From an uncultured Geobacter sp. (GTDB lineage Bacteria > Desulfobacterota > Desulfuromonadia > Geobacterales > CAIOGM01): DNA of 64,000 bases. Positions 53,867-64,000 of the stretch are shown here, one piece after another; within the stretch, counting starts at the first letter, position 1, and every line of letters begins with the position of its first letter. The translations under genes and the position numbers were made by a program. Location: the NCBI GenBank assembly GCA_903902855.1, contig CAIUWK010000053.1, positions 1-64,000 on the forward strand, in the 5' to 3' direction. The notes beneath the pieces are model-generated. The model made no database searches. It saw nothing but the letters and a program-made list of their open reading frames with translations, and was not told where the DNA came from.

Positions 53867-54742
53867 TCAGATCCCGCCGCCGGCGCTTCTGACCTCGCCG
53901 GTTTCGATGGCCAGAATCTGGTCGGCCCACCCGGCAGCCCATTTCCGTAACGCTTCAACCTGCAACGGCTCCGGGACTTTCGATTCGGTATGAGCCGCGA
54001 TCTTGCCCGCCAGAACCTGATAGATCTTGGCCTGGTCGGAGTCGGGATACGCCTCGATGGTGGTCTTCCCCTGAAGTTCGCTCTGGGCCACGGTGATGGA
54101 GCGGGGGACGTATTCGATCACCTGGGTGTTCGTCTTGTCCACGAAGTCGTCGATGATATGCTTGGCATAGGGGGAATTCACCGAGTTGGCAATAACCCCC
54201 CCCAGGAGTGCCCCGCCGTTGTTGGAGTACTTCTTGATCCCGGTAAAAAGGTTGTTGGCCGCGTAGAGGGCCATGAAATCCGACGAGGTGACGGTGAAGA
54301 CATGCTCGGCGATCCCCTCCCTGATGGGGACGGCAAAACCGCCACAGACCACGTCCCCCAGGACGTCGTAGATCACATAGTCCAGATCGAATTCCTCGAA
54401 GACCCGGAGCTGCTTCAGCAGCTCCACGGCCGTGATGATCCCCCTGCCGGCGCAACCCACCCCCGGCGCCGGCCCCCCTGCTTCAACACAGTAGAGGCCG
54501 TTGAAGCCGGTGTAGACGATCTCGTCGATCTTGACATTCTTCTTCTCCCGGAGTGTGTCCAGGATGGTGGGGATGTACTCCCCCCCCCGCAGGGTAACGG
54601 TGGAGTCGCTCTTGGGGTCACACCCTACCTGCATGACCTTGTAACCGGCCACTGAAAGGGCGGCGCTGATGTTGGATGTGGTGGTGGATTTGCCGATGCC
54701 ACCCTTGCCGTAAATCGCGATCTGTTTCGGTTTCTTGGCCAC
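53867..54742 (-). CDS. NifH-like nitrogenase-type reductase (MarH-like)
   Basis: The 291-residue protein starts at a GTG with AGGAGG 5 bases upstream. It keeps every key feature of a dinitrogenase reductase: P-loop YGKGGIGKST (residues 11-20), Switch-region DPKSDST, 4Fe-4S ligands Cys97 (GVGCAGRG) and Cys133 (DVVCGGFA), and Arg100, the ADP-ribosylation position in NifH. It should be a homodimer that delivers electrons from ATP hydrolysis to the D/K partners encoded at 58-61 kb. It is the last gene of the nifB-acyP-nifH group, followed by a strong terminator. The absence of other nif genes and the sulfur context argue for a Mar-type or other nitrogenase-like system rather than N2 fixation. Confidence 0.92.
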   Translation of the reverse strand: MAKKPKQIAIYGKGGIGKSTTTSNISAALSVAGYKVMQVGCDPKSDSTVTLRGGEYIPTILDTLREKKNVKIDEIVYTGFNGLYCVEAGGPAPGVGCAGRGIITAVELLKQLRVFEEFDLDYVIYDVLGDVVCGGFAVPIREGIAEHVFTVTSSDFMALYAANNLFTGIKKYSNNGGALLGGVIANSVNSPYAKHIIDDFVDKTNTQVIEYVPRSITVAQSELQGKTTIEAYPDSDQAKIYQVLAGKIAAHTESKVPEPLQVEALRKWAAGWADQILAIETGEVRSAGGGI

Positions 54743-54780: not shown

Positions 54781-55053
54781 TTAACAACGGATCTCAAACC
54801 CGCTGAATTCGTTGCGATACTCTCCCGGCTCCGCTAAAAAACCCTCGACTCTTGCCCGTTCCGGACCGATGGCGCACCAGGAGAGGAGTGCCTGTACCGC
54901 GCTCTCCGCTCCTTCAATACAGGCGGAGACACTGCCGTCGGCGAGATTTTTCACCCAGCCGTACACCTGTAACTCCTGTGCGATGCTACGGGTGCTCTTC
55001 CGGAAGGAGACCCCCTGGACCCTCCCTCTGACGATGATGAAATAACGAACCAT
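54781..55053 (-). CDS. acyP: Acylphosphatase
   Basis: The 90-residue protein has the acylphosphatase signatures RGRVQGVSFRKST (anion-binding loop with the catalytic Arg) and GWVKNLADGSV (catalytic Asn). It hydrolyses acyl phosphates; here its place in the pathway is unclear. Its GGAGGTGA site overlaps the nifB stop, so it is translationally linked to nifB, and the nifH-like gene starts 38 bases downstream. The tight placement between nifB and nifH suggests a role in this locus, or it may be a passenger gene. Confidence 0.93.
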   Translation of the reverse strand: MVRYFIIVRGRVQGVSFRKSTRSIAQELQVYGWVKNLADGSVSACIEGAESAVQALLSWCAIGPERARVEGFLAEPGEYRNEFSGFEIRC

Positions 55054-55059
55054 TACTCT

Positions 55060-55932
55060 TCACCTCCCTGCAGGCGTGGCGCAACCGCCAAACGCCGTAC
55101 TCACATCCTGGCCGATGAGGCCGATGGCGTCGGCCCGGCACTGACGGCAGTGCCGGAACTGGCCGATAATCTTTTCATTGGCACTCCGAATACTCTCCAG
55201 CTGTTCCGGGCTTGGAGGGATAACCTGGGAGAACTCCGCTTGCGGGATGAGCGGCATGACGTTCATCACGAAGGCCCCTAGCTCCTTGACCTTCAGGGCA
55301 ATGAGCGGTATCTGGTCGTCATTGACTCCCGGAATCAGGACCGTGTTGACTTTAACCGTCATACCGTACTCCACCGCTCGCCGGACCCCTTCCAGCTGGT
55401 TGGCGATGATGATCTTCCCCGCCTCTGCTCCGCGGTAGGTCGTGCCATGGTAATGAATGAAGGAGTAGATCTTCCCCGCTACTTCAGGATCAACGGCGTT
55501 GATGGTGACCGTCAGGCTCTGAAGGTCGATCTCCTCCAGTTCGTCGATCCGTTCCGGGAGAAGCAGCCCGTTGGTGCTCAGGCACTTGATAAGCTCGGGA
55601 AACTCGGCGCCGATGAGCCGGAAGGTTTCAAAGGTCTCCTCATTGGCCAGAGGGTCACCAGGACCGGCGATCCCCACCACCTTGATGACGGGACCAAGGA
55701 GGTCGCTGGCCATCACCTCCCGAACTTTGTCCAGCGCCTCCAACGGGGTGAAGATTCTGCTGGTCACCCCCGGACGGGATTCGTTGACACAATCATGTTT
55801 TCGGGTGCAGTAGCCGCACTTGATGTTGCAGCGAGGCGCCACTGCCAGATGTATCCTGCCGTTTTTGTGATGGTTGCCGCCGAAGCAGGGGTGCCCCTGA
55901 ATCTCCTTCCGGCCATTGCATGAATCCGACAT
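55060..55932 (-). CDS. nifB: NifB-type radical SAM FeS cofactor synthase
   Basis: The 290-residue protein is a single-domain NifB without the C-terminal NifX-like extension. It starts with HPCF and the radical-SAM CxxxCxxC (PRCNIKCGYC, Cys35/39/42), followed by RKHDCVNESRPGV, GIAGPGDPL, and the C-terminal CRQCRADAIGLIGQD. NifB makes NifB-co (the 8Fe-9S-C precursor), which all nitrogenase-type cofactors need. Its presence implies that the D/K pair here carries a NifB-derived cofactor, as in MarB-dependent methylthio-alkane reductase. A GGGGAG site lies upstream. Leader element B precedes it, and acyP follows with a coupled start. Confidence 0.94.
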   Translation of the reverse strand: MSDSCNGRKEIQGHPCFGGNHHKNGRIHLAVAPRCNIKCGYCTRKHDCVNESRPGVTSRIFTPLEALDKVREVMASDLLGPVIKVVGIAGPGDPLANEETFETFRLIGAEFPELIKCLSTNGLLLPERIDELEEIDLQSLTVTINAVDPEVAGKIYSFIHYHGTTYRGAEAGKIIIANQLEGVRRAVEYGMTVKVNTVLIPGVNDDQIPLIALKVKELGAFVMNVMPLIPQAEFSQVIPPSPEQLESIRSANEKIIGQFRHCRQCRADAIGLIGQDVSTAFGGCATPAGR

Positions 55933-56067: not shown

Positions 56068-57021
56068 TTAGAACCCTTCGAACAGGGAGGTGGAGAGATA
56101 CCGCTCCGCTCCATCGGGGAGGATCACCACGATGGTCTTGCCGGCAAACTCGTCCAGCCGGGCCAATCGCACCGCTGCGGCCACCGCTGCACCGCTGGAG
56201 ATCCCCACCAGGAGTCCTTCTTCCCGAGCCAGTCGTTTGGCGAATTCAAAGGCCTCGGCGCTCTCCACCAGCTCCACCCGATCGATGAGGGAGAGGTCCA
56301 GTGTCTCCGGAATAAATCCGGCCCCGATCCCCTGAATTTTATGGGGCGCCGGTTTCAACTCCTGGCCGGCCAGCTTCTGAGTGATCACCGGGCTCTCCTT
56401 GGGCTCCACCGCCACGGAGATGATCGGCTTCCCTTTGCTGTTCTTGATGTAGCGTGAAACACCGGTGATGGTCCCGCCGGTCCCTACTCCGGAGACCAGG
56501 ACGTCGATCCCGCCGTCGGTGTCGTCCCAGATTTCGGGGCCGGTGGTTTTCTCATGAATAGCTGGATTAGCAGGGTTCTTGAACTGCTGGGGGAGGTACC
56601 ACCGGTTAGGATCGGAAGCGGCGATCTCCTCAGCCCTGTTCACGGCCCCCTTCATCCCTTCAGCACCGGGAGTCAGGATCAGGGTGGCTCCCAGGGCCGC
56701 CAGCAGCCGGCGGCGCTCGATGCTCATGGTCTCCGGCATGGTGAGGGTCAGCTTGTACCCCCGGGCCGCGGCAACGTAGGCCAGAGCAATCCCGGTGTTG
56801 CCGCTGGTGGGCTCGATGATCTCAACCCCCGGTTTGAGCAGACCCCGCTCTTCGGCGTCCCAGATCAGGCTGGCGCCGATGCGGCATTTCACCGAGTAGG
56901 CGGGGTTGCGCCCCTCGATCTTGGCCAACACGGTGGCCTTGGCCCCCAGTGTGAGATGGTTGAGTTTGATGAGTGGAGTATTGCCGATGGATTGCGAGTT
57001 GTCCTGATAAATCTTGGCCAT
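56068..57021 (-). CDS. cysK: Cysteine synthase (O-acetylserine sulfhydrylase)
   Basis: The 317-residue PLP enzyme makes cysteine from O-acetylserine and sulfide. Motifs include [10 protein letters not shown], the PLP lysine in [21 protein letters not shown] and the phosphate loop [16 protein letters not shown]. The ATG at 57021 with AGGAG is the true start; the longer frame covers repeat DNA. It lies inside the nitrogenase-like locus, directly downstream of an Rrf2 gene, fitting a sulfur-assimilation regulon. In Bacillus, CysK also acts as co-repressor of the Rrf2 protein CymR, which makes this pairing notable. Confidence 0.97.
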
Positions 57022-57358
57022 GGAGTGCTGCTCCTTTCGGTGGTGTATTCGTGTTGCTTCGTGCCCCGGGTTAAATCTAAAGCTGCGATTACACCACAGA
57101 GTCACAGAGTACACAGAGAAATTCTTGGAGATAACATAAAGATCAGGAGCTAAGAGCCCGTAACCGTAAAATATCTTTGAACCGCAAAGACGCAAAGTAC
57201 GCGAAGAAAACAGAGAGAAACGACGGAACCTGGCTTTTTTTGGATTATCTCTAAAAAAAGCTATTTCTTTACGGTTCCTTTGCGTCTTCGCGGTGAAAAT
57301 GTTTTCGAATTTCGTTGTGCCGGTGAGATTTCTTCTATTCCGGCTTGTCCGGCTTGGG
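57022..57358. repeat. cysK upstream region with dispersed repeat family
   Basis: The region contains CACCACAGAGTCACAGAG-like sequence (57093-57120) and ACCGCAAAGACGCAAAG (57180-57207), with an inverted relative CTTTGCGTCTTCGCGGTG (57280-57297). The latter two arms can pair into a long stem of about 115 bases span. These are typical dispersed, non-coding repeats. An AT-rich stretch follows at 57235-57270. No gene. Confidence 0.6.
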
Positions 57359-57811
57359 TTAAATTGAATAATCGATTATCTGTTTCGTGGCATCGCTTCG
57401 CTCAACGACTCCGGAGAGCAGGGCCGAATCGAGTATTTTGGCGATGGCCCGGTGCACATCGGACATGACCTGTCGAATACCGCACAGCTCCATACCGTCA
57501 CACTCGGTGCAGTGGGGGTAGCTCGCATCCCGAAGACAGGCCAGCGGAGCGTAATCCCCTTCCAGGGTTCTGATGATCCGCCCCATGGTCAGCTCCCTGG
57601 CCGGAATTGCCAGAGAGTACCCCCCCCCTTTGCCGATCCTGCTCTGGAGAATACCGCCGTTTTTCAATGCCAGGAGAATCGCCTCCAGGAATTTTTTCGG
57701 AATTCGTGCTTCCCTGGCAAGATCGGAGATGATGACTAACCCCTCCCCCTCCCGTCGTGCCAGCGCTATGAGTGCCTTGAGTCCATAGGTGCTTTTCTTC
57801 GAAAGGATCAT
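57359..57811 (-). CDS. Rrf2-family transcriptional regulator
   Basis: The 150-residue winged-helix protein shows the Rrf2 signature [19 protein letters not shown], then [19 protein letters not shown] and a wing with [12 protein letters not shown]. The C-terminal half has four cysteines ([17 protein letters not shown]; spacing C-x8-C-x2-C-x5-C), compatible with an Fe-S cluster or a redox switch, unlike CymR, which lacks them. Upstream are a TTGACA/TAATCT promoter and leader element A; cysK follows. It probably controls this sulfur/nitrogenase-like locus, with targets unknown. Confidence 0.9.
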
Positions 57812-58042: not shown

Positions 58043-59386
58043 TTACCTGCCGCCGACGATGCTGCTGATCAGATCTTCGGTGAGACGTAAACCTCCCCGG
58101 AATCCGGTGTACCCCCGGTCGATGATTGCCCGGTTGGCCACGGGAAAGGTGACGGAAAGGTGCCCGGCCCCCAGAGTCTGGGCCAGCTCCCGTTCCAGGG
58201 AACTCCCCACCACAAAGGCCGGAGCAAAGGTGTTCTGGTAGGTGGCACCGTTGCCGGCAGGCCACTTCTTTCGGAGATGATGGATGACCTGACTGGCGTC
58301 GGTCTCGAAAACCAGGTTCGCCCGGTATCCCGACGCCAATGTTGCCAGCCCGTCCGTCAGTCGCTGCCGCTCCTCCTCCCCCAGCGGATCGGTGCAGACG
58401 GTGAGCTCCGGGAGCCATCCCAGATCATCGGCCAGAAACCGGGTAAGAGCCCCGGCATAGTTGGCGTCCCCCACCACCACGGCATACCGTTGCAGGTCCA
58501 GATCATTCCAGCAGTCGGTCAACGGCTCCAGCAGCCGGAAATAGTCACCCTTTTCCCGGGCGATGACCTCGTCCACGCGCTCCGCACTCAAACCGAGCTT
58601 CGTGCCGACGCTCCGGAGGAAAATTTCGCTGGCGGTGGGACCGATGGGGAGGGGGGTACTCAAAAACGGAATGCCATGCCGCTCTTCGGCCAGCAAAGCG
58701 GCACCCAGACCGTAGACCTCGGAGACAACGATATTCAGGGCCGCGCTCCCCCCTTGCCGGATACTGTCCAGAGTGTCCTTGGTGGTAAAAAAGCTGTTCA
58801 CCTCCAGGCCCAGCTGCTCCAGCAGGTGACGCACCCCTTCCAGGTTCCCCCGCCAGAAGGGATCACCATAGGGGGCAATCCCCCAAAGGTTGACCTTCAG
58901 CCGTTCCTTATCCGTTGACGTTGCCACGAAATCCCGGAACAGGGCCTGGAGCACCAGATCGTACCCCCAGTAGGAGTTCCCCCGGAACCCGCCGGTCTCG
59001 GCCCCGATGATGGGGGCTCCCTGGGAACTGAACTCCGCCACCACGCTCTTGATGTCCTCGCCGATTATCTCGGGGACACAGCCGGTGAGCACCACGAAGA
59101 GCTCCCCGGCCATGACCTTCAGGGTGGAGGCGACCTGCTCCCGGAGCCGATCGTCACCGCCGAAGACCACTTCATGCTCCTGAATGTTAGAGCTGGGGGT
59201 GGTGAGCGCCCCGCAGTAACCACCCACCTGAAGGCCGCTCCCCCCGTTCTGGGTCCAGGCAAAATTACCGGCGCAACCGGAGGCGGAATGGAGAATGGGG
59301 ATGGCCTTGGGGATGGCGGTCACCGTGGCTGCGGCTCCACCCAGGGCGCAGAGATATCGGGACCGTTCTATGAAATGCTCACTCAT
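58043..59386 (-). CDS. Nitrogenase-like K subunit (MarK/NifK-like)
   Basis: The 447-residue protein starts with ATG at 59386 in an ATGA overlap with the D-subunit stop. It aligns with nitrogenase beta subunits: three candidate P-cluster cysteines Cys13 (RYLCALGG), Cys38 (SASGCAGNF) and Cys103 (TGCVPEIIGEDI). The 25-residue spacing between the first two equals that of NifK Cys70/Cys95. Later parts show SEVYGLGAALLAEERHGIPFL and a C-terminal NRAIIDRGYTGFRGGLRLTEDL. It would pair with the D subunit as a heterotetramer served by the NifH-like protein. Leader element A and rrf2 follow downstream. Confidence 0.88.
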   Translation of the reverse strand: MSEHFIERSRYLCALGGAAATVTAIPKAIPILHSASGCAGNFAWTQNGGSGLQVGGYCGALTTPSSNIQEHEVVFGGDDRLREQVASTLKVMAGELFVVLTGCVPEIIGEDIKSVVAEFSSQGAPIIGAETGGFRGNSYWGYDLVLQALFRDFVATSTDKERLKVNLWGIAPYGDPFWRGNLEGVRHLLEQLGLEVNSFFTTKDTLDSIRQGGSAALNIVVSEVYGLGAALLAEERHGIPFLSTPLPIGPTASEIFLRSVGTKLGLSAERVDEVIAREKGDYFRLLEPLTDCWNDLDLQRYAVVVGDANYAGALTRFLADDLGWLPELTVCTDPLGEEERQRLTDGLATLASGYRANLVFETDASQVIHHLRKKWPAGNGATYQNTFAPAFVVGSSLERELAQTLGAGHLSVTFPVANRAIIDRGYTGFRGGLRLTEDLISSIVGGR

Positions 59387-60918
59387 ACCGTGGTGCCTCC
59401 TCGGCTGTTGATGTAACTGAAGGGGTGGGACCCGTACCACTCATCGGTATAGGGAAGGGTCAGGTTCTCCGCCAGCCGCCGGTTGTAGGTCGGGTTCTTC
59501 AGCTGCCGGGCCAAGCGCCGAGCCAGGTCATAGGCGCCCCGGTAGCCGATGTAGGCCAGCCCGGTGTTGTAGATGACATGGGTGGCGATCCCCAGCTTGG
59601 CGGCGGTGGCGTTGCCGTTGGCGTGACCGAGAAAGAGATCCGGCTTGATCCGCTTCAGGAGGTTCACCTCCTCGAAGGGCTGGACATTGGCGATATCGAT
59701 GGGATAATCCTCCTGGGCGGTGGCGGCCAGCTTGTCGTACTCCCCCTGGGCGAATTCGTCGTGGTGGAAGGAGCGAATACCCACCACCCGGAACCCCAAC
59801 TCCTCCAGGAGCCGGGCCGTGGCCAGTGCGCGGAATTCGCCGGCGCTGACGAAGACGGTTTTCCCTGTAAAGAGTGGGCGAAACTCCGCCAGGGCCTCCT
59901 GCAACTCCGCTTCTTCCTTACGGATAATCGCTGCCACCTCCTCCTCTGCGCCGAACTGCCGGGCCACATCCCGGAGCCAGAGCCCACTGTTCTCGATACC
60001 GATGGGCATATGCTTCAGCAGGTACGGCACCCCGAACCGCTCTTCCAGGTAGGTGAGGAAATAGTCGTCGTGGGTGGGGCAGGTGCTCACCGACAGAGCC
60101 GCCTGGGTCGCCTTTACCATCCCCTCGGGGTGGGCAAAGACCGGGAAGACGTTGACCTCCAGCCCCAGCGCCGTGAGCAGCCGCGTCAGCTCCAGCTCGT
60201 CAACCCGCCCCATGGAGGAGACATTCATCAGGTTCACCGTCCGGGGGAGCCGCTCCAGCCCCGCATAGGGGACCATTCCGGCGTCCACACCCTCCCCTTC
60301 CTCCGCACCGTCAACCCTGCTCCTCTCCAGGAGGGTCCGGCCAATGGAGTGGTAGACCGCATCATAGGCCGTGGCCCAGATTTTGGTCTTGAACCCCTCG
60401 CAGTGGACCGGCAGCAGTTTCGCCTTTACCCGTGGCTGGAGCTGCTTTACCACGGTGTCGATGTCATCGCCGATGATCCCGGGGACACAGCCGGAGACCA
60501 CGGAGATGCTGAAGGGGTGATACCGCTCGTCCGCCTCGATGATCGCCTGCTCCAGTTTTTCCTCGCCGCCGCTGATGACGTCGGTCTCGTTCAGGGCGGT
60601 GGAGAGCCAGACCCCGTCCTTCACCTTTCCCCACCGGACATTGCCGCCGAAGCGGACATTGGCGTTCTGGGAATGGGTGCAGGTGCCGCAGCCGATGGCG
60701 CTGTGCATGAGGACCACGTTGTCGGGGAGGGTGTTGAGCATGGCCAGGGCCGGCAGAAGCAGGCAGATGGAGCCCTGGGTGAACCCCCGCTCCCCATCAT
60801 CCACGAGGCACGATTTTTTTCCCTTCCCCCCCAGGTCGCAGACACTCCCGCCATGGGCGATGCACGCCTTCAGCCGCTCTTCCCGCCGGGGGGGGGATTT
60901 CAGATCCATGTAACTCAT
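59383..60918 (-). CDS. Nitrogenase-like D subunit with FeMo-co-type Cys/His ligands (MarD-like)
   Basis: The 511-residue protein starts at an ATG (60918) overlapping the upstream stop in ATGA. P-cluster ligands fit Cys52 (GSICLLLPALAM), Cys77 (SAIGCGTC) and Cys144 (SGCVPGIIGDD). Cofactor ligands fit Cys280 (SVSTCPTHDDYF) and His447 (IATHVIYNTG); their 167-residue spacing is exactly that of Azotobacter NifD Cys275/His442. After VHCEGF the segment is about four residues shorter and lacks the NifD Gln191/His195 region needed for N2 reduction. This fits a NifB-cofactor enzyme with a different substrate, as in MarDK. Subunit identification is strong; the reaction is inferred. Confidence 0.9.
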   Translation of the reverse strand: MSYMDLKSPPRREERLKACIAHGGSVCDLGGKGKKSCLVDDGERGFTQGSICLLLPALAMLNTLPDNVVLMHSAIGCGTCTHSQNANVRFGGNVRWGKVKDGVWLSTALNETDVISGGEEKLEQAIIEADERYHPFSISVVSGCVPGIIGDDIDTVVKQLQPRVKAKLLPVHCEGFKTKIWATAYDAVYHSIGRTLLERSRVDGAEEGEGVDAGMVPYAGLERLPRTVNLMNVSSMGRVDELELTRLLTALGLEVNVFPVFAHPEGMVKATQAALSVSTCPTHDDYFLTYLEERFGVPYLLKHMPIGIENSGLWLRDVARQFGAEEEVAAIIRKEEAELQEALAEFRPLFTGKTVFVSAGEFRALATARLLEELGFRVVGIRSFHHDEFAQGEYDKLAATAQEDYPIDIANVQPFEEVNLLKRIKPDLFLGHANGNATAAKLGIATHVIYNTGLAYIGYRGAYDLARRLARQLKNPTYNRRLAENLTLPYTDEWYGSHPFSYINSRGGTTV

Positions 60919-62294
60919 ACAGGCTCTTCTCCGTTGTTCGTAATGGTGTTTCTTATCCGCGCCGGGATTTCCCGGCTGCAGGGAATCAGGGTGGAGCAAT
61001 GACCGCAAGAGCCATACCCCCACCCTTTGAAATGCTCCTTGTTGCCATGCTGTTCGCACCGGCCGGGGATCTTGCCGACATCGGTGACGGCCCCGGTGGG
61101 GCAGCGCCGGATACAGGCGTGACAGCTGGCGTCAAAGGCATAGAGACAGTAACCGTAAATGTCGGTATAGGTTCTGATGGTGGGGAGCAGCTTGAGCGTT
61201 GTGACCACGCTGCAGAGACGTCCCAGGCACCCCTTTTCGCTGATAAAATTCTGGTGCAGACCGAAGGTGCCCAATCCCGCGGCAAAGGCGGCATGCCGCT
61301 CCGACCAGAAGGGGAGCCACCCGTCGGAGTCATACCGGGGATCGATATTCGGAGCGACAGCCGTAGCGCCGTGCTGTTCGGCAAACCGGAGCAATGCACG
61401 GCGCACCACGTTGAGAAACTTGGAGCCGTTCCATTTACCCGACGAGAACTCGATGGCCGAATAGCGCTGCCCCTTCGTATAATTTCTCGTGATTTCCTTG
61501 GTAAAGGGGAGAAAGATACTGATGATCGATTGGGCGCCGGGCAACCATTCATGAGGCAGACGGTGACCGGGGCCGACTACCTCCGGGTCCTGAAACCGTT
61601 CAAACAGCGGGTCACTGGCGGAGGCGATCCCCACCAGCGGGGCGTCCCAGATGGGGAGGTTATCCCCCTCGGGGAGCGCATTGCGAAAATCGGTGACCAC
61701 CAGAGCCGTTACGTACCGCAGGATCTCTCCGGTGGCAACGTCGGGAAGAAAGCCGCTCTCACCGGCAGAGATCGGCGCCGGATCGGGGAGAAAGAAGAGG
61801 GGATTGACCCCCTTGACGCCGCTCCCCCTGCTCTTCCCTTCGGGATTGGGATCTGACGACCCTTTCAGAACCGGCGGGAAGTCGAAGGGTTTGCGAAATC
61901 CGGGCGGAGATCCTTTGGTGAAATCGTAGGCCGTCCAGATAGAGAGCTGTTCATACCGCTCTGTCAGCAACTTCTCGGCAAGCTGTTCCGCGTCCCGACC
62001 CTCCGGCAGACGGGTGGTCCCCTCTTCCGGAAACAGTTCCCCTTCGATGAAATAGTAGACTTCCTGACGAACGGGAGTACCGGCATTCCGGAGAGTGACG
62101 CAGCGGTCCGATGATCGCACGGCCAGCACCTTGCGATTATCCGGCCGATACCCATAAAGATTCACCTGCCGGATATAGTCGCTCAGACATTCCAGGAGTG
62201 ATGGACGGTTCAGGATATGCGCCGAGGGTTCGCCCCACTTGGGGATCTCGTTGACAAAGAGTGACGCGCTGACATCCGCTTCTTGAGTGGACAT
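60915..62294 (-). CDS. QueG/reductase-like 4Fe-4S protein
   Basis: The 459-residue protein has an N-terminal region of unknown fold and a C-terminal half resembling epoxyqueuosine reductase (QueG)-type proteins: SERHAAFAAGLGTFGLHQNFI, then cysteine motifs CLGRLC, SCHACIRRCPTGAV and YGSCGHCSTLIPC, consistent with two 4Fe-4S clusters. QueG and related enzymes use cobalamin, and a B12-dependent reductive step is possible here but not shown. AGGAGG precedes the ATG. Its stop overlaps the D-subunit start in ATGA, so the two are translationally coupled. It could be an electron donor, a maturation factor or a second substrate enzyme. Confidence 0.82.
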   Translation of the reverse strand: MSTQEADVSASLFVNEIPKWGEPSAHILNRPSLLECLSDYIRQVNLYGYRPDNRKVLAVRSSDRCVTLRNAGTPVRQEVYYFIEGELFPEEGTTRLPEGRDAEQLAEKLLTERYEQLSIWTAYDFTKGSPPGFRKPFDFPPVLKGSSDPNPEGKSRGSGVKGVNPLFFLPDPAPISAGESGFLPDVATGEILRYVTALVVTDFRNALPEGDNLPIWDAPLVGIASASDPLFERFQDPEVVGPGHRLPHEWLPGAQSIISIFLPFTKEITRNYTKGQRYSAIEFSSGKWNGSKFLNVVRRALLRFAEQHGATAVAPNIDPRYDSDGWLPFWSERHAAFAAGLGTFGLHQNFISEKGCLGRLCSVVTTLKLLPTIRTYTDIYGYCLYAFDASCHACIRRCPTGAVTDVGKIPGRCEQHGNKEHFKGWGYGSCGHCSTLIPCSREIPARIRNTITNNGEEPV

Positions 62295-62306: not shown

Positions 62307-63083
62307 CTAACGCCTTGCGGTCCAGTGCAGGGCCCGTCGCTGAAACGCGTCGAACAGTGTCATGACGATGATGATAAAGGCCGACATGAAGAGCATCCCG
62401 GCCAGAACTTTCGGGTAATCGGAGAAATCGGCGTAATACTGGATAAAATAGCCCATCCCTGATTTGGCGCCGAACATCTCCGCCACGGTGAGGAGGATAA
62501 AACTGAAGACCAGCGCCATCCCCGCACCGCTGAAGATATGGGGAAGCGCTCCGGGAAAGACCACCTTACACAACAGGCGTCCCCCTTTCAGGCCAAGAGT
62601 CCGCGCATTATCCAGATACCGCTCTTCCAGCAGAACCACCCCATGGATCGTCCCCAACAGGATCGGCCAAAAAGCGCCGGCAAAGATGATGAAGGCGGAG
62701 GAGAGCCAGAAGGTCGGCAGGATCGAGATGGCATAGGGAATCAGCATGGTCGGCGGTATGGGGCTGATCCCGCGAAAGATCGGCATCAGCACCTTCTTGA
62801 GAGTGGGATGATAGCCGACAAAGAGTCCCAGGCTTATTCCCAGAATCAACGCCAGAAGATAGCTGGGGAGGAGCAGGCCGAAGGAATTCAGCAGCCCGTC
62901 CAGAAGCCGGGGAAGCGACTCCCGGAATGCAGGGACAATTCTGACCAGGCCGGGGAAGAGGACCGGTTCCAGCCAGCCGGTGACGTCCGTTGCCAGTTCG
63001 TACGCCGCCACTACCATGGCACCGATCAGAGCCGTTCCCGTATATGCTCCCGCCGATTTCCCGGCTGTTGATCTCGATGACAC
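62307..63083 (-). CDS. ABC transporter permease, SsuC/TauC type
   Basis: The 258-residue membrane protein has about six helices and the binding-protein-dependent permease EAA motif region (NARTLGLKGGRLLCKVVFPGALPHIFSG). A GTG start has AAGGAG upstream. It follows the substrate-binding gene and precedes the QueG-like gene by 12 bases. The ATPase is not visible in the window and probably lies beyond the right edge. Family members carry sulfonates, nitrate or other small organics; the context suggests a sulfur compound. Confidence 0.9.
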   Translation of the reverse strand: MSSRSTAGKSAGAYTGTALIGAMVVAAYELATDVTGWLEPVLFPGLVRIVPAFRESLPRLLDGLLNSFGLLLPSYLLALILGISLGLFVGYHPTLKKVLMPIFRGISPIPPTMLIPYAISILPTFWLSSAFIIFAGAFWPILLGTIHGVVLLEERYLDNARTLGLKGGRLLCKVVFPGALPHIFSGAGMALVFSFILLTVAEMFGAKSGMGYFIQYYADFSDYPKVLAGMLFMSAFIIIVMTLFDAFQRRALHWTARR

Positions 63084-63099
63084 GATTGACTCCTTCTTG

Positions 63100-64000
63100 T
63101 CAGCTGTTCTGTGCTTCGAACGTTTTCATGGCGTCCTGATAGTAACGGTCCTTAGGGTAGCGACGAATCAGTGCGTTCAGAGCATCACGGTAGAGTTCGG
63201 TGTTGATGAAGCGGTTCACGTCAAGATCGGATTTGACATACTCTATCTCTTTCAGTTCATGCCACATCTGTTTGACCCCTTTTTTGTTCGGGTCAACGTT
63301 GACATGCTGATGGGGTTCATGAACAAATTCCCGGGCAAGCTTGTCGTCGATGTTCATGTAGCGGCGGGTAATATCCTGGGCCAGAGAGCCGTCCTTATCC
63401 TTTATCCGCTCCGCCTGGAGGAGCGCACGAAGAAAGGCCCGATAGATTTCCGGATCGCCGCTGACCGCTTTCCCCTTGGCCACGATTCGACAACAGGGAT
63501 GCTGGGGAAAAAAGTCATTGCTCCACCCCACGATGGCCAGACCCGACTCCTTGGCCTGAAGATAAATCGACGAGGCGCCGATCCCCACATCGACCTTGCC
63601 GGATTTGACCGCCTCAAGGACGGCCGGAGGATTTTTGAGTTCGATGATCTTGACATCCTTGTTCGGATCGATGCCGGCCCGTTTCAGGGCGCCGCGCCAG
63701 ACCACATCCGCGGTATAGAGGCGCGGCGTGGCAACCGTTTTCCCCTTGAAATCCTGGATTGACTTGAATTGCCCCGCTTTGGCCTGAAGAGCGATCACCG
63801 GGTGTCCTCCTGCCAGAGCGCCGCCGATGATGGTGAAGTCCGATCCTTTCGTGATAAAGGTCAGTGGCGCGGCAGTACCGAAGGAGATCCCGATATCGAT
63901 TTTTCCGCTGTTCAGGGCATTCAACCCGTCACCGGAACTGCTGAACTGCACGAGTTCAACCTCTATCCCCTCTTTGGCAAAGAGTTTCTGATCCTGGGCA
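63100..64000 (-). CDS. ABC transporter substrate-binding protein, SsuA/NMT1 type (partial)
   Basis: The N-terminus is cut by the window edge; the visible frame (300 codons) reads through position 64000 with AQDQKLFAKEGIEVELV. It belongs to the SsuA/TauA/ThiY family: SSGDGLNALNSGKIDIGISFG, KGKTVATPR, ILxxVKSGKVDVGIGASSIYLQAKES. It would bind the substrate in the periplasm for the adjacent permease. Substrate unknown; a sulfonate-like, thioether or related sulfur compound is suggested by the operon. Confidence 0.88.
   Translation of the reverse strand, partial: AQDQKLFAKEGIEVELVQFSSSGDGLNALNSGKIDIGISFGTAAPLTFITKGSDFTIIGGALAGGHPVIALQAKAGQFKSIQDFKGKTVATPRLYTADVVWRGALKRAGIDPNKDVKIIELKNPPAVLEAVKSGKVDVGIGASSIYLQAKESGLAIVGWSNDFFPQHPCCRIVAKGKAVSGDPEIYRAFLRALLQAERIKDKDGSLAQDITRRYMNIDDKLAREFVHEPHQHVNVDPNKKGVKQMWHELKEIEYVKSDLDVNRFINTELYRDALNALIRRYPKDRYYQDAMKTFEAQNS

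Follow-up and report, generated by a model that had tools for sequence, protein, structure and literature searches.

The window, that is, the whole 64,000-nucleotide stretch of DNA analysed here from an uncultured Geobacter sp., carries on one strand, in this order, genes for an SsuA-type binding protein, a permease, an Fe-S protein, the D and K subunits of a nitrogenase-like enzyme, an Rrf2-family regulator, CysK, a NifB core, an acylphosphatase and NifH (Table 1). Position and strand of the D open frame were verified. Because of the ATGA overlaps on both sides of D, the Fe-S protein, D and K appear to be translationally coupled. The Fe-S protein has no Pfam or PDB match and only a weak QueG-like match in its C-terminal part. 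It adjoins D in about 15 Geobacterales loci among the best 80 of 258 relatives.

Table 1. Genes and codons of the D locus (positions in the window).
Feature	Position	Strand	Remarks
SsuA-family substrate-binding protein	63100–64000	-	start beyond window
SsuC/TauC-type ABC permease	62307–63083	-	
Fe-S protein, weak QueG-like C-terminal part	60915–62294	-	ATGA overlap with D
D subunit gene (NflD, GH type)	59383–60918	-	511 aa; intact frame; start codon overlaps stop of upstream gene (ATGA)
Cys52 codon	60763–60765	-	P-cluster ligand position (NifD Cys62, MarD Cys66); invariant, 101/101
Cys77 codon	60688–60690	-	P-cluster ligand position (NifD Cys88, MarD Cys91); invariant, 101/101
Cys144 codon	60487–60489	-	P-cluster ligand position (NifD Cys154, MarD Cys158); invariant, 101/101
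Trp181 codon	60376–60378	-	NifD Gln191/MarD Trp195 position; W, M, S or V in clade
Tyr185 codon	60364–60366	-	NifD His195/MarD Phe199 position; invariant in clade
Cys280 codon	60079–60081	-	cofactor ligand position (NifD Cys275, MarD Cys270); invariant, 101/101
Arg363 codon	59830–59832	-	NifD Arg359 position; Tyr/His/Phe in Mar (RH) clade
His432 codon	59623–59625	-	proposed second cofactor ligand, Loop I (MarD His429); invariant, 101/101
His447 codon	59578–59580	-	ligand proposed in the preliminary description; not conserved; in strand
K subunit (NflK)	58043–59386	-	about 447 aa; ATGA overlap with D; Cys13/38/103 align with MarK Cys32/56/121
Rrf2-family regulator	57359–57811	-	
Cysteine synthase CysK	56068–57024	-	above cut-off
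NifB-like radical SAM core	55060–55932	-	290 aa; no NifX domain
Acylphosphatase	54781–55053	-	
NifH-like reductase component	53867–54742	-	Cys97 and Cys133 kept

The same contig continues upstream (L041) with two more binding proteins, a permease and an ATPase. This part also encodes three UroD/MtaA-type corrinoid methyltransferases with HxC...C motifs, the corrinoid activator RACo and a stand-alone NifX-type cofactor protein (PF02579, 1.8e-21; L041:5026-5367, minus strand, corresponding to G000:C53:69026-69367). A NifX-type domain present as a separate small protein, together with a NifB core that does not contain it, amounts to a split NifB.

The D protein belongs to the nitrogenase component 1 family (PF00148 at 2.4e-80). 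None of the NCBIfam nitrogenase models comes near its cut-off for D; the best one is NifE with 169 bits against 505. In a phmmer search, no solved relative is closer in sequence than MarD from the methylthio-alkane reductase (Mar) of Rhodospirillum rubrum (9FMG/9D9U, 2e-64), which comes far ahead of any NifD and has 30% identity to D. K is nearest to MarK (5e-83). The AlphaFold2 model of the D monomer, computed from 98 sequences, has a pLDDT of 91.8 and a pTM of 0.91 and supersedes a model from 22 sequences (pLDDT 72). The fold comparison ranks MarD first (9FMG_A, TM 0.91, E 5e-39), with NifD behind at a TM of about 0.77. Thus, D is the D subunit of a Group IV nitrogenase-like (Nfl) protein, the catalytic subunit of a nitrogenase-related enzyme. 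Judged by clade, pocket residues and fold, D falls outside both nitrogenase and Mar, but it probably works in a Mar-like manner.

The three P-cluster cysteines of D (Cys52, Cys77 and Cys144) align, as had been stated in the preliminary description, and Cys13, Cys38 and Cys103 of K are retained in every non-gap row of the alignment. Cys280 is paired with NifD Cys275 in the profile-profile alignment. As these ligand positions of D and K and that of His432 (see below) are invariant, the ligand set for a P-cluster and an [Fe8S9C]-type cofactor is complete, and clusters would be expected to occupy it.

The histidine ligand had been placed at His447 on account of its distance from Cys280. The spacing is exactly 167 residues, no other Cys-His pair in D is spaced in this way, and it matches Cys275 and His442 of NifD, whose sequence was compared with its PDB entry. 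However, in the profile-profile alignment with NifD, His447 pairs with Arg439, three residues before the position of His442, and His442 itself falls in a gap beside Tyr450 of D. The phmmer alignment also sets His442 against Tyr450. In the AlphaFold2 model His447 lies inside a strand (residues 445–448). Its column holds a histidine in 61 of 86 relatives with at least 50% identity and in none of the 15 below 50%. Any histidine 167 residues after the Cys280 equivalent was found in only 43 of 110 aligned relatives, a set that includes 8 S-R-H rows and is separate from the one behind the 101/101 counts of Table 1. By composition (14 of 511 residues), the chance of a histidine at any single position of D is about 3%. 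The equal spacing is a product of cancelling indels and not of homology. Since its column varies while all other ligand positions are fixed, His447 is probably not a metal ligand.

MarD binds its [Fe8S9C] cluster through Cys270 and through His429, which lies on Loop I, a different loop from that of NifD His442 (PMC12552129). His432 of D stands exactly opposite MarD His429 when the D clade and the MarD clade are aligned (hhalign, E=4e-101). Gly431 and His432 are invariant in 101 of 101 clade members, and the model places His432 between a strand (428–431) and a helix (433–441). Hence the cysteine keeps its assigned place and the histidine does not: judged from the alignments, the second cofactor ligand should be His432 on a MarD-type Loop I, not His447. 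The earlier histidine assignment thus fails under the refuting condition named in the preliminary description itself, namely different positions of the Cys or His.

The segment after the VHCEGF motif had been described as about four residues shorter than in NifD and as lacking the part with Gln191 and His195. Both MAFFT and hhalign align GFKTKIWATAYDA of D with GFRGVSQSLGHHI of NifD without a gap. The Gln/His pair of N2 reduction is indeed absent from these positions, but by substitution (Gln191 to Trp181, His195 to Tyr185); nothing is deleted. The wider conclusion, a NifB-type site tuned to another substrate, holds in its broad reading, although the specific evidence offered for it, His447 and the lacking segment, was wrong. 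A NifB-made site for a substrate other than N2 is supported by the retention of six P-cluster cysteines and Cys280, by the clustering of the NifB core and the NifX-type protein with D, and by the absence of Gln191 and His195.

Trp181 and Tyr185 match the published MarD positions Trp195 and Phe199 (PMC12552129). Trp181 is replaced by Met, Ser or Val within the clade of D, and therefore substrates may vary. In the hhalign alignment the proposed MarD hallmark Arg428 is opposite a gap, Gly431 being the residue that precedes His432. Ile180 occupies the position of MarD His194. With no counterpart of Arg428 and with changes at several positions of the pocket, D/K may catalyse a different reaction from Mar.

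A maximum-likelihood tree, computed for 34 D proteins without NifD and rooted at its midpoint, divides Group IV sharply into two clades, here named RH and GH after their Loop-I residues. The RH clade (support 100/100) contains MarD and, from Heliophilum, NflD5, NflD1 (Nfa type) and NflD3 (L171, L169 and L170, respectively). The GH clade (100/99) contains D, Heliophilum NflD4, which is 67% identical to D, and NflD2. The Heliophilum names were assigned by matching gene order and strand to PMC9147875; NflD5 is published as Mar. A larger quick tree including NifD and NifE has the same outline with weaker deep support. D carries the marks of the GH clade, namely GH for RH in Loop I, C[PA]THDDY and Arg at the NifD 359 position. 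The pocket of this clade may tentatively be described as a hybrid that combines Mar-type ligation by a Loop-I histidine with the nitrogenase-type Arg363, which replaces the Loop-I arginine of Mar, and an invariant Tyr at the place of nitrogenase His195.

Heliophilum fasciatum NflDK4 and NflDK2 (PMC9147875) share clade, ligand set and GH motif with D. They belong to a different phylum, and the D locus has extra neighbours confined to Geobacterales, such as the Fe-S protein. In a species-level genome collection, 258 relatives of D were recognised. The best 80 of these, which were taken for analysis, come from Geobacterales, Clostridia, Negativicutes, heliobacteria, termite-gut Spirochaetes, Planctomycetes, Acidobacteria and Myxococcota. 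In the host's order, such genes are present in 26 of 117 genomes, some of which have five D paralogues.

The host also has nifDKEN (contig C45) and further Nfl genes, so that its N2 fixation is already covered. Two more Nfl loci were observed: an RH-type D/K pair on C111 (L042), and on C112 (L043) genes for K, for a cysteine or cystathionine synthase with a CBS domain and for a corrinoid protein, together with the first part of a D gene that the contig end cuts off. Another Group IV D clade (L069:3987-5498, L071:7111-8610, L074:8608-10281, L077:9634-11166 and L148:6017-7534) has no Loop-I His (CPFQGS or APFKGG instead) and keeps all P-cluster cysteines and Cys275. It has a Loop II His (IHALRG or IHWLRG) near the position of NifD His442, which possibly represents nitrogenase-like ligation in a non-nitrogenase. 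The D protein of a relative of the host (L075:8094-9512, G088) has one P-cluster Cys and no cofactor Cys and resembles IsrD of isethionate reductase. In an Oryzomonas MAG (L049:10001-12859), D and K lie in one open frame, either a D-K fusion or a sequencing frameshift.

Gene neighbourhoods were counted in the 62 relatives' loci with at least 12 kb of sequence; these are loci of nearest relatives (from the best 80 of 258) and not a random sample. ABC transporter parts are present in 58 of the 62, UroD in 40, RACo and a corrinoid protein in 26 each, and cysK in 25. A phmmer search with the protein of locus L058 places the corrinoid protein next to K in relatives. Kountz and Balskus connected type I mlp gene clusters with genes resembling those of Mar and with the metabolism of methyl-sulfur compounds (PMC10418091). 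Such clusters have several MtaA-like HxC...C proteins, RACo, CysK and nitrogenase-like genes in common with the D locus, where at least two Mlps (three UroD/MtaA-like proteins) and a Ram/RACE protein (RACo) run in one direction. A corrinoid protein inside the cluster is not present; among the stretches of the host genome that were scanned, it was found only on C112. The D locus is therefore nearly a type I mlp gene cluster, and it reads as a pathway for import and dismantling of organosulfur compounds that ends in cysteine.

From the computed fold, ligand positions, clade and gene neighbourhood, D/K is taken, with moderate confidence in the explanation as a whole, to be the catalytic component of a GH-type Group IV nitrogenase-like reductase for reductive C-S cleavage in sulfur assimilation. 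Its probable role is the release of sulfur from small organic molecules, not nitrogen fixation. C-S cleavage agrees best with the precedent of Mar and with the gene context. The explanation as a whole is favoured by the invariant ligands, the match of His432 to MarD His429, the MarD precedent, the fold, the MarK-like K and the NifB, NifH and NifX genes. It is further favoured by the ABC transporters, CysK, UroD methyltransferases and RACo that adjoin D here and in many phyla, and by the occurrence of Mar-like genes in type I mlp clusters. Against it stand the pocket differences from MarD noted above, the location of the host's corrinoid protein on another contig and the absence of corrinoid genes from some relatives' loci within the sequence stretches examined.

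The proposed order of steps would begin with uptake of a small organosulfur compound by the SsuA-type ABC transporters, although SsuA-family binding proteins cannot name a substrate. The NifH-like protein would deliver electrons, at the cost of ATP, to a P-cluster held by Cys52, Cys77 and Cys144 of D with Cys13, Cys38 and Cys103 of K. From there they would pass to an [Fe8S9C] cluster, made by NifB and bound through Cys280 and His432, where the C-S bond would be reductively cleaved. The sulfur would be released as methylthiol or sulfide, methyl groups would be stripped by the corrinoid S-methyltransferases and CysK would convert sulfide to cysteine.

D/K might instead reduce another sulfur compound, for example a sulfonate, and release sulfite as proposed for isethionate reductase (Isr). 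Isr is a precedent for a sulfonate-cleaving Nfl enzyme, likewise of Group IV, with a sulfonate-type transporter nearby and a role in sulfur assimilation (PMC11423573). SsuA/TauA-type transporters adjoin D as well, and sulfite could be used, since the host encodes proteins with a NIR_SIR domain. However, IsrD has a single P-cluster Cys and lacks the other two and the Cys275 counterpart (PMC11423573), whereas all four cysteines are present in D. The D locus encodes a NifB-like B protein, unlike IsrB, which has no relationship to NifB, and the corrinoid S-methyltransferases point to methyl-sulfur. This reading is therefore considered unlikely.

It is distinctly unlikely that D/K is a true Mar acting on the R. 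rubrum substrates (methylthio-ethanol, DMS and ethyl methyl sulfide). Mar is the nearest solved relative by sequence and fold, and sulfur-related genes adjoin D. The six P-cluster cysteines and the positions of MarD Cys270, Loop-I His429, Trp195 and His375 are common to both enzymes, Trp181 and His385 being kept in D. But D lies outside the MarD clade (100/100 against 100/99) at only 30% identity. It lacks counterparts of Loop-I Arg428, His194 (Ile), Phe199 (Tyr) and Cys73/Gln74 (Ala/Met) and has Arg at the NifD Arg359 position. Furthermore, a Mar and GH-type copies occur together in genomes such as that of Heliophilum, and D adjoins CysK rather than a methionine-forming enzyme.

A demethylating or selenium-linked role, in which D/K would either act as a methyl-selenium reductase or work for the corrinoid cycle itself, is very improbable. 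Most type I mlp clusters have been ascribed to the metabolism of methyl-selenium (PMC10418091), and the nearest relatives' loci strongly associate these genes with RACo and corrinoid proteins. Yet Mar-like genes are linked to the non-selenium clusters (PMC10418091), RACo is already there for corrinoid reduction, and CysK and the ABC transporters fit sulfur.

Least probable of all is an N2-fixing enzyme or a NifEN-like maturation scaffold. NifE is the best, though far sub-threshold, NCBIfam match, and for Endomicrobium NfaDK a link to N2 fixation is cited in PMC9147875. But nifDKEN is present on C45, equivalents of Gln191, His195 and His442 are absent, Nfa-type NflD1 groups in the RH clade and not with D, and N2 is not reduced by MarD, whose site is similar (PMC12552129). 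D shares with NifD the fold, the P-cluster cysteines, Cys275 and the Arg359 position, at about 22% identity; NifD Lys426 is opposite Asn434.

For the family, it may tentatively be proposed that the GH clade forms a functional class of its own among enzymes with P-cluster and [Fe8S9C] cofactor, beside nitrogenase, Mar and Nfa. With its hybrid pocket and together with corrinoid S-methyltransferases, it might convert methylated organosulfur compounds to sulfide and cysteine in anaerobes that belong to several phyla. The proposed Mar diagnostic is qualified as well, since the Arg-His pair is not confined to Mar but common to Mar, Nfa-type NflD1 and NflD3, and the Loop-I His also occurs without the Arg. 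Nitrogenases and Mar are the only catalytic NifDK-like proteins for which such large cofactors have been demonstrated (PMC12552129). A clade that is widespread, keeps every cluster ligand, has its pocket rearranged and stands in a sulfur and corrinoid context would allow a clean test of how the reaction is set by the protein scaffold and not by the cofactor. The GH clade may also explain how sulfate-poor anaerobes recover sulfur.
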